A stretch of DNA of 64,000 nucleotides from Tetramitus jugosus (Eukaryota; Heterolobosea; Eutetramitea; Acrasida; Vahlkampfiidae). The stretch is taken from positions 1 through 64,000 of the forward strand of contig OW569370.1 of NCBI GenBank assembly GCA_937625935.1. The letters are read 5' to 3'. The position numbers and the translations under genes were made by a program. Below the pieces are notes generated by a model. That model saw only the letters and a program-made list of their open reading frames with translations. It did no database searches and was not told the origin of the DNA. Below are positions 5,042 through 7,873 of this stretch, one piece after another (the first letter of the stretch is position 1; each line of letters begins with the position of its first letter).

Positions 5042-5705
5042 TTAATTATTTATTAAGCCCTTAATAAAGTATCTATTGTATCCAAACTTGTACTGTGGAG
5101 CAGTAGGCACCTCGTATCCCAATTCTTTGGCAGCACGAATTGGCCAGTTAGGTTCTCTGAGCGATACACGACCAATGAGAACAAGATCAGCCCTCTTATC
5201 TTCAATAAATTTGTTTGCCTTCACTGGATCAGTAATCAAACCAACAGCTCCTGCCAGCACTCCTACTTCATTCACCACTCTCTCGGCGAATGGAACTTGA
5301 TAATTAACGAACTGAGCAAATGCTTTCACCCTGGTGTTAGCTCCAGAAGAGCAATCAATGAGATCAACACCGACATCTTTCAACAATTGAGAAAGCTTGA
5401 CGTGATCATCAACAGTCCAACCTTCTTCGACATAATCCGTAGCAGACAATCTTGTGAACAGTGGTAACTCATCAGGAATGGCAGCTCTAACTCTCTCACA
5501 AATTCGTACAATCAGTCTAGTTCTGTTCTCAAAGCTTCCTCCATACTCATCTGTCCTAAAGTTTGACAACGGGGAGTAAAAGTTGTGTAGCAAGTAACAT
5601 TGGTGCAATAGCAATTCTATTCTTTAGTGTGCGACCACGAATGGTCAATGGAGTGAATAGAGCAGGCACTTGTTTTTCTTGTTGAAGTTCTTGTTGTGCA
5701 GTCAT
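5042..5705 (-). pseudogene. Old Yellow Enzyme (YqjM-type) pseudogene with internal deletion
   Basis: Members of this family are FMN-dependent NAD(P)H:ene-reductases of about 340-370 residues forming a TIM barrel. An ATG at 5705 opens the expected N-terminus (residues such as VPALFTPLTIRGRTLKNRI, then APM). At about 5608 the sequence jumps to the later barrel, in another frame: LLHNFYSPLSN, RTDEYGGSFENR, then LIDCSSGA, GLI and the ADLVLIGR phosphate-binding segment, ending at a stop at 5042. About 130-140 residues in between are missing, including the substrate-binding His pair region. Deletion plus frame change leave no route to a full enzyme. No splice signals explain the junction. Confidence 0.85.
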
Positions 5706-6292
5706 TGTTGTTTTCTTGTGTTAGGGTTAAGTTTTTCTTTGTTGTTTTGTTGTTATTTGTTCTTGGACTATGCAAGAAGCAATTTTAAAGGTGGCAAATT
5801 GTGCGCAATCGACCACCTTTTGCCACCTTCTGGAAGTTAGGACATTCGCTGCGGAAGACAGAAGCCACGACATTCGTTCAAATGCGGGTATCGGTATTAA
5901 GTATTTAACACTCAGTTACCGGTCACTTACGGAAGCATGATTGCACACAATTGGGAGAGCTTCGATCACGCGTGACAATGGCCAAAAATACAACCGATCA
6001 TGATCCGAGTATGACAATAATTATTAATCGACAAATGAAAAGGAAAAGATCAAATATGTTGACAACGATGATGCGTCTTTCAATTCTTGCCCCATGAAAT
6101 TCGATGGAAATCTTCGACAGTCAATCGATTTGTGTACCAGCATTTTGCCTTTATTGAAATGATACATTGAACCTTTGGAAACAAATGGCACATTCCAACT
6201 AGTCTAGAGCCCCAGTAGGGTTAGACATATAATGCCGTAGGCTGGCAAGGGAATCTATTGACTTCCACTATTACACTTACAAAGGAACTTGA
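5706..6292. other. Intergenic, 3' flank of the Fanzor remnant
   Basis: It lies upstream of the OYE pseudogene start and downstream of the 3' end of the minus-strand nuclease remnant. No coding frame was found. In intact Fanzor and TnpB loci the guide (omega) RNA and right element lie in this position; no conserved structure could be identified here by eye. Confidence 0.4.
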
Positions 6293-7243
6293 TCAATATG
6301 TTTCTGGCAAGGCATCACATGGCGCAACAAAACAACCAATCCATGATCGATTCCATGATTTGTCGGAACCTGTAATGGGACCACGTGCACATCTGACTTG
6401 CAGTCTTGCTTCGAATTTTTCGCTCTCCTCTTGATCATCGTAATTCTCACACAAGTACTTACTGATCTTGTGATGGGCATCCTTGACTTCTTCAGCATCG
6501 CTTTCCTCATGTTCTGTCTCTTCTTATGATTGAACTCATAGGCTTGACTTTCCTTTTTCTGGTTCATTTAAATCTTGTCTGCCCGATACAGATGTTTGAA
6601 GATTCGATCCATTCCTTTACTGCCAAACTCGATGGAGGATCCATCGGTAGCATAACCAGTCATGAAGGCCCTCACTCCAGGATCTAAAGACATGACATTC
6701 TTAAAGGTGTTTGGCACTTCCTTCAGTTTGTCTAACGGCTTCAACATGATGACATAGAATCGACCAATGGAGTCCTTGATAATTCTAGTGTTATACTGGA
6801 TGTCAACTGGAAATTTGCTCTTGGTTTTGATCTCTCTGAGCCAAGAAGCACTTCCATCATCATTCCAGTGTCTGTAGCGAAGAAGGATTCTGTCAATTTC
6901 TTCTTTTTGCTCTTGAATTTCATTTGAAACATCGTCACCTCTGCAAACACCTTAGCCTTTAACGCCTTTCCTTTCAAGCCCTGAGCTCTCAGTCTGACCT
7001 CTGCTTTCTGTAACTTTTCCTTGTGGACTTTCAGTGCTTGTTGGGTTTCCACGTCTTGTCTTCCTGTTTTTTGAGCATAAACTTGTTATAAAAGTCAACA
7101 CATTGGTTATACACCCAACGATAAATTCCCATCCACTGATTCAATTTCTTCCTCTCTTCATTGTTGGGATACAATCTTATCTTCCAGGCTTTTACAACCT
7201 CAACTTTCTTACGAGCCTTGGTAGTGACCCTGTTCTTCTTCAT
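6293..7243 (-). pseudogene. Fanzor/TnpB-like RNA-guided nuclease, frameshifted and truncated
   Basis: Four minus-strand fragments follow each other in the order expected of a Fanzor. First, from an ATG at 7243 to about 7031: a basic N-terminus and KIRLYPNNEERKKLNQWMG...YNQCVDFYN, the OrfB/TnpB N-terminal domain. Second, about 7043-6885: a charged helical segment ending FKSKKKKLTESFF. Third, about 6887-6568: RYRHWNDDG through to MSLDPGVRAFMTGYATDG, the RuvC-I motif with its catalytic Asp, ending at a TAA. Fourth, about 6524-6293: VKDAHHKISKYLCENYD, the helix before RuvC-II, after which similarity fades. At least three frame changes separate them. The zinc ribbon and RuvC-III are absent, so it is almost certainly inactive. 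Just upstream another frame (7470-7240) ends in an Arg-rich NLS-like tail (NKRRRTRGSRR) that may be part of the ancestral N-terminus. Confidence 0.8.
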
Positions 7244-7873
7244 CGCCTCGAGCCTCTCGTTCTTCTTCTCTTATTTTCTGCAGCACGTCGTCCACTATTT
7301 CTTGCAACGAACACACTGATGACTGAGAGGGCTTTGGACAATTCATCTTCTGATGAAGTTTGCCCTGCTTCATCTTCACTGTGAATCAGCAATTTTGTTT
7401 GAAACTTTGGGTAGATTTGTTCAAGTAATTGGTATCCAAATCGACACAGTCTGTCTTTGCGCATGACCACAGTTTCTGAGACAAGCTTTTGAATCGTTGC
7501 GAATCATGCAAGAGAGGGTTGAGAAGCAAAAACTTAAAAGACAATTGAAGAGGAAAAGGGAGTTGGAAAAAATGTGGGAAAGCTATCAAACCACCTTCAG
7601 AGTAACAGGTTTTGGTTTTCCTTTCTGACAGTGTTTTGTCTAAGCTAAGATGGTTTTAAAGCATTTTACGATGTTGCAGAATCCGATTGTATGTAAAAGT
7701 AGCAGAGGACAATGTTGAAATTCCAACGAACTCAATCAATGCTGAATGATATCCCTTTGTTTGTTAAAGCTTCTTTGTTGAATGTGAATAAACAATGCTC
7801 AGCCACGGACTCAGTTTCGACTGTGTTTTTATCGTGAATTCACATACTCTACACACTGCTTTCTTGGCACATA
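7244..7873. other. 5' flank of the nuclease remnant
   Basis: Contains the minus-strand frame 7470-7240 described with the nuclease remnant, and a short basic plus-strand frame from an ATG at about 7510 (MQERVEKQKLKRQLKRKREL, about 40 codons) that may be an exon or chance. No terminal inverted repeat matching the other side was found by eye. The right edge adjoins the methyltransferase stop codon. Confidence 0.35.

Follow-up and report, generated by a model that had tools for sequence, protein, structure and literature searches.

The first 64 kb of contig C27 in the Tetramitus jugosus assembly (26.35 Mb, 56 contigs), which we analyzed as a whole and call the window, carry scattered pieces of a TnpB/Fanzor nuclease gene beside a telomere array. 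This locus raises the question of what kind of element the pieces came from, whether any function is left in it, and how it relates to the intact Fanzors of the same genome. An earlier note, made from the letters alone, had proposed a disabled TnpB/Fanzor relic next to a telomere, and this reading was borne out by an HTH_OrfB_IS605 domain, the DPG motif at RuvC-I, (CCCAAA)n at 1-887, frame changes and a stop codon. The window was searched with a TnpB profile made from 90 TnpB ORFs from outside the genome, which covered every stop-to-stop ORF of the window from 20 aa upward (1,889 in all), and with a profile of 46 outside TnpAs. Three relatives, P0001, P0003 and P0078, are used below for comparison. 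The features found were the following.

1-887, no strand: array of telomere repeats, (CCCAAA)n, which starts the contig with its C-rich strand (6-base unit in 147.8 copies with 99% matches by Tandem Repeats Finder).
7243-7503, minus strand: C-terminal half of an IS607-family TnpA serine recombinase (NCBIfam NF033518, E 3e-10, 40 bits, model positions 116-187 of 187; outside TnpA profile, E 2.3e-14, positions 113-187 of 197).
7031-7270, minus strand: TnpB/Fanzor N-terminal region with HTH_OrfB_IS605 (PF12323, 43.9 bits, E 1.7e-11, cut-off 21; TnpB profile positions 157-198, E 2.6e-10, in ORF 7034-7270).
6741-7085, minus strand: next stretch of TnpB, in another frame (38 aligned residues, 58% identical to P0001 residues 1-38, E 8.5e-11).
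6568-6951, minus strand: RuvC-I stretch of TnpB with DPG (LDPGVRAF), ending at an in-frame TAA (68% identical to P0001 over 109 residues; TnpB profile positions 281-362, E 1.9e-14, in ORF 6571-6951).
6466-6567, minus strand: TnpB helix after RuvC-I, in the frame of the RuvC-I piece and past its stop (58% identical to P0001 residues 147-170, E 1.6e-7; 62% to P0003 residues 96-121).
6437-6523, minus strand: TnpB stretch before RuvC-II, in another frame, weak alone and supported by its place in the series (TnpB profile positions 394-410, E 0.13, in ORF 6296-6523; P0078 residues 452-468, E 0.003).
6348-6434, minus strand: TnpB helix after RuvC-II, in the third frame, the last recognisable nuclease piece (TnpB profile positions 425-452, E 1.3e-10, in ORF 6318-6434; 61% identical to P0078 residues 480-507).

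The two dead genes were thus read as seven ordered pieces in three frames of the minus strand (approximately 6348-7503), and the nuclease pieces at 6348-7270 occupied all three frames in the order of a TnpB/Fanzor protein. Strong E-values of the TnpB and TnpA profiles in the window were confined to the relic. The only other TnpB-profile match below 0.1 (7389-7655, E 0.0039) aligned to the variable upstream part of the stop-to-stop ORFs and was set aside. The ordered N-terminal and RuvC-I fragments described earlier were recovered with PF12323 and the TnpB profile, and the OrfB-family check that had been proposed came out positive through PF12323. LDPGVRAF of the relic aligned to LDPGVRTF of the TnpB profile. 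On the RuvC-I piece, NCBIfam guided_TnpB gave a weak match (E 0.014) and Pfam PF01385 gave no score. A helix had also been claimed before RuvC-II; a weak stretch does lie there, whereas the strong piece lies after RuvC-II.

P0001 is a 173-aa protein encoded in one open frame on an 814-base public contig, and it matched three successive pieces of the relic, at 6741-7085 (residues 1-38), 6568-6951 (residues 29-143) and 6277-6567 (residues 147-170). The TnpB-like reading of the first of these was limited to the part down to approximately 6879. In the relic, the stretch spanned by this open frame is divided between two frames with a stop between, and since a single frame of P0001 covers all three pieces, they represent one broken gene. 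As judged from the protein alignment, this match is direct evidence of the breakage. The match to P0078 likewise extended to 6466 across one internal TAA.

Directly upstream of the nuclease remnant, on the same strand, lies the recombinase remnant. The interval given earlier, 6293-7243, was too short because this remnant runs on to 7503; the nuclease had been seen and the adjoining IS607 serine recombinase missed. The NF033518 cut-off of 110 bits applies to the whole protein, and the 40 bits of the relic are far below it because only half remains. The N-terminal half of TnpA (first 112 profile positions) was not found in any frame, and no Pfam family, Resolvase (PF00239) included, scored on the TnpA piece. 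Pfam and NCBIfam scans of the relic and upstream pieces gave no match to an HUH/Y1 transposase of the IS200/IS605 type. We compared the arrangement with 115 outside loci, which comprised 98 retrieved through TnpB relatives and 17 through the TnpA piece and were no random sample; 50 of the 115 matched all four pieces compared (TnpA, N-terminal, RuvC-I and post-RuvC-II), and 49 of these 50 had the piece order of the relic on one strand. A serine recombinase adjoining the nuclease indicates an IS607-type tnpA-tnpB element, and at this locus the two remnants, each of them broken, follow one another on a single strand as in IS607. Very probably, a single IS607-type transposon, whose lineage is most likely DPG (Fanzor2/pro-Fanzor), inserted into the subtelomere, lost its function and decayed to the present locus.

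From what is known of the family, the intact TnpA would have moved the element as a serine recombinase, joining it at a GG dinucleotide without target duplication. The intact TnpB, guided by RNA from the right end of the element, would have cut site copies that did not carry the element, and repair after the cut would have copied the element back. A search for target-site duplications, suggested earlier as a test, does not apply here, since IS607 elements make none according to PMC6188088. The ends of an IS607 element also have no inverted repeats, and at the relic the ends were not found.

The nuclease gene showed at least four frame changes (one somewhere between approximately 7080 and 7000, the others near 6880, 6490 and 6436), one in-frame TAA and internal deletions. 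The "at least three frameshifts" counted earlier are real and were an undercount. Approximately 7 residues were missing at the junction near 6490 compared to P0003, and approximately 13 around the RuvC-II strand compared to P0078, an intact protein of 586 aa. The loss of the zinc ribbon and RuvC-III was confirmed: approximately 80 C-terminal TnpB residues, which include the shifted glutamate, the zinc finger and RuvC-III, were not found by the TnpB profile or in the three frames read down to 5720, and none of the at least 30 places in the genome matching the zinc ribbon PF07282 was at the relic. The end of 6293-6523 may hold a trace of the region that immediately precedes the zinc finger, but the signal was too weak to claim. 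Because the zinc finger and RuvC-III are absent, the locus is a truncated relic and no working Fanzor2/pro-Fanzor member. The predicted product, which has lost two of the three catalytic stretches as well as the zinc finger, would no longer be capable of RNA-guided cutting. The catalytic serine of IS607-family TnpA lies in the N-terminal half. This half also holds the DNA-binding domain (PMC6188088), and the TnpA relic, reduced to the other half, would no longer support recombinase-driven movement.

The relic carries DPG at RuvC-I, a mark of Fanzor2/pro-Fanzor proteins, and an N-terminal HTH_OrfB_IS605 domain, a feature of some Fanzor2 proteins. Under the definitions given in PMC10711439 and PMC3627910, the combination of DPG at RuvC-I and an IS607 TnpA indicates the Fanzor2/pro-Fanzor lineage. 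Fanzors and pro-Fanzors differ from other TnpBs in a shifted RuvC-II glutamate, which lies six residues ahead of the zinc finger. The zinc-finger motif was readable in 70 of the 90 outside ORFs, all 70 of which had DPG and the shifted glutamate; among the 13 other full-length relatives whose motif could be read, 11 had both and two were without the pair. The relic most likely belongs to the Fanzor2/pro-Fanzor lineage, an assignment in which the class-separating glutamate itself falls in the missing stretch.

In trees of approximately 95 aligned residues, the relic grouped with P0001 and P0002 (support of 0.99 in both trees), and the identity of the RuvC-I piece to P0001 in the tree alignment was 70%. 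P0078 came next in the larger tree of 217 sequences (0.92), whereas in the smaller tree, which was made without P0078, P0003 came next (0.37), followed by virus-contig proteins (0.83). The placement beyond P0001 and P0002 differed between the two trees, and the wider placement is therefore unsettled. P0078 was the closest intact relative among those listed (best 120 of 2083, with candidates limited by length), and its best match among solved structures was the TnpB-like protein L79 (PDB 9b0l, E 3.2e-29, residues 173-568); the RuvC-I piece of the relic itself gave no match to 9b0l. P0003 is a public protein on a 2529-base contig that is itself read out of frame in part, as its first part matches an off-frame part of the relic, and in which DPG is lost, which suggests an independently decayed copy in another genome. 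The closest full-length kin of the relic were metagenomic proteins. Confirmed relatives in prokaryote genomes numbered 165, of which the 80 listed all carry cyanobacterial names, and 18 relatives were present in IMG/VR contigs. Single nuclease pieces gave no match against IMG/VR, whereas alignments led by the relatives did.

Intact relatives of the relic had been suggested as possible elsewhere in the genome. Searches of the genome with the RuvC-I piece, the N-terminal piece, the DNA at 6000-7700, the IS607 family and P0078 returned only the relic locus, with the sensitivity limit that P0078 missed the distant Fanzor1-like copies and that a strongly diverged second relic could escape. A candidate second relic on contig C40 (PF12323, 19.5 bits, below the cut-off) looked unrelated on reading, and a further candidate at C39:13354-14037 read as a disrupted member of the Fanzor1-like family and not of the relic's lineage. 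With one copy found and many lesions in it, the insertion looks old, or at least abandoned, and the recent mobility proposed earlier for this relic is not supported.

The intact Fanzors that the genome does contain are assigned by sequence comparison to a different, SpuFz1-like family. Of the at least 30 PF07282 places, 27 were over the cut-off and some were broken. Among the Fanzor1-like copies fetched (loci L144-L163, for example L145, L146, L150, L153 and L155), 19 of 20 were open, with 628-649 aa from the first Met, and all 19 retained the zinc finger's first CxxC together with DPG and the shifted glutamate. The one copy compared with solved structures matched SpuFz1 (E 3.8e-13). Five copies lay in shared 2.7-kb elements that were 96.9-98.5% identical and had TTAA and inverted repeats at their borders, the repeats measuring 18 bases in L145; TTAA is also the target motif predicted from the flanks. 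Both end motifs were present in 6 of the 19 oriented loci, and the rest had one motif or a variant right end. The closest copies were up to 99.4% identical over 3 kb. From these sequences, the Fanzor1-like family looks recently mobile. One further Fanzor1-like copy near a contig end (L004/L025, approximately 1.6-4.8 kb from the start of contig C32) was split over two overlapping frames.

We considered whether the frame changes of the relic are sequencing or assembly errors in an intact copy. The relic strand has runs of at least five equal bases at 7072 (six A) and at 6908, 6558 and 6420 (five A each), and the range of the first frame change, from approximately 7080 to 7000, includes the six-A run, so that an error is possible there. 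The frame changes near 6880, 6490 and 6436 are outside such runs, however, and two of them coincide with missing residues; sequencing error accordingly does not explain the damage as a whole. The losses at the TnpB C-terminus and the TnpA N-terminus extended over every frame, and the window is not generally broken, as seen from 25 other open frames of at least 200 aa outside the telomere array. This explanation is highly improbable. The pieces could instead be exons of a working, intron-containing gene, as the host is eukaryotic and the pieces are in order. At three junctions, however, only 0 to 2 bases separate the matched stretches, too few for an intron; one junction is an in-frame stop, P0001 reads through two junctions in one open frame, and the zinc finger and RuvC-III are absent. 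We regard a spliced gene as very unlikely indeed.

A Fanzor1-type relic, derived from the Fanzor family already present in the genome, would fit a genome with so many PF07282 places, some of them broken, and yet is hardly credible. The RuvC-I piece showed 15-19% identity to five own-genome Fanzor1-like proteins compared to the 70% with P0001, and the best match of any relic piece to the genome's own Fanzor loci had an E-value of 0.004 over 42 residues. An IS607 TnpA remnant is attached to the relic, and in PMC10711439 no Fanzor1 was found in IS607 elements. A separate question, compatible with the IS607-type reading, is whether the element arrived through a giant virus or straight from ingested cyanobacteria and not by descent within amoebae. 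Such an arrival is plausible, if short of probable. The metagenomic kin, the cyanobacterial names and the IMG/VR relatives agree with it, as does a relationship of Acanthamoeba IS607 elements to cyanobacterial and giant-virus ones stated in PMC4053784. On the other side, the trees disagree beyond P0001 and P0002, the relic matches the window in GC content (0.418 vs. 0.414), and the giant-virus marker DNA polymerase B was found in 1 of 16 virus records. A search for the capsid marker gave 0 of 16 with its controls equally silent and is uninformative.

The decayed IS607-type element can be set beside known systems. ACa-1 and ACa-2 of Acanthamoeba castellanii and ISvMimi of mimivirus are described in PMC3627910 as IS607-type elements with Fanzor2, and share with the relic an adjoining TnpA_IS607 and, in some Fanzor2 proteins, HTH_OrfB_IS605; DPG at RuvC-I is likewise a Fanzor2 feature in PMC10711439. 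Unlike these elements, the relic has both genes broken and is without the zinc finger, RuvC-III and the TnpA N-terminus. Fanzor2 in Naegleria, mentioned in the earlier note, is documented in PMC10432273, with four Fz2 loci in N. lovaniensis; NlovFz2 is, unlike the relic, intact and an active nuclease that cuts DNA with the TAM CCG. Cyanobacterial pro-Fanzor TnpBs in IS607 elements resemble the relic in DPG and the order tnpA-tnpB, and four relic pieces match them independently, whereas they are bacterial, have largely open frames and are approximately 30-37% identical at best in the RuvC-I stretch. Fanzor1 proteins are carried by eukaryotic transposon types other than IS607, in contrast to the relic with its IS607 TnpA.

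No description of an IS607 relic in Naegleria was found in the literature searched, where the sole paper joining both terms was that on the Acanthamoeba genome (PMC4053784). The relic is a real and fairly ordinary fossil, given that IS607-borne Fanzor2 in amoebae and a functional Fz2 already appear in PMC3627910, PMC4053784 and PMC10432273. One more eukaryotic genome is thereby added to those that once housed an IS607 element together with its recombinase, here alongside unrelated intact Fanzors, and this is a small data point on the passage of RNA-guided nucleases from bacteria to eukaryotes. More speculatively, and we think it rather unlikely, the genome may hold both ends of a proposed route from TnpB to Fanzor1, namely a dead, once self-mobile IS607 element of the Fanzor2/pro-Fanzor type and a recently active Fanzor1-like family in TTAA-flanked inverted-repeat elements. 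If true, the capture of Fanzors by eukaryotic transposons would be traceable within one lineage. For experiments, the intact TTAA-flanked Fanzor1-like family is more useful material than the relic.

The surroundings of the relic are those of a eukaryotic subtelomere. A search of the assembly with a 42-base telomere pattern gave 5948 forward and 5797 reverse matches; the places listed were at the start of contig C1 only, and the backward control was equally frequent because it represents the same repeat. Eukaryotic genes in the window near the relic encode, for example, coatomer beta, a protein kinase, an M24 peptidase and an importin-like protein, and the relic is flanked by a flavin-oxidoreductase remnant and a methyltransferase. 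The FMN-oxidoreductase gene (5042-5720, minus strand) matched its profile in two pieces, at positions 2-23 (weak, below the cut-off) and 175-339, and its middle seems to be missing, which suggests that the subtelomere around the relic may be decaying more widely. A short stretch of interstitial telomere-like repeats was also observed at 1866-1890, approximately 1 kb inside the main array.
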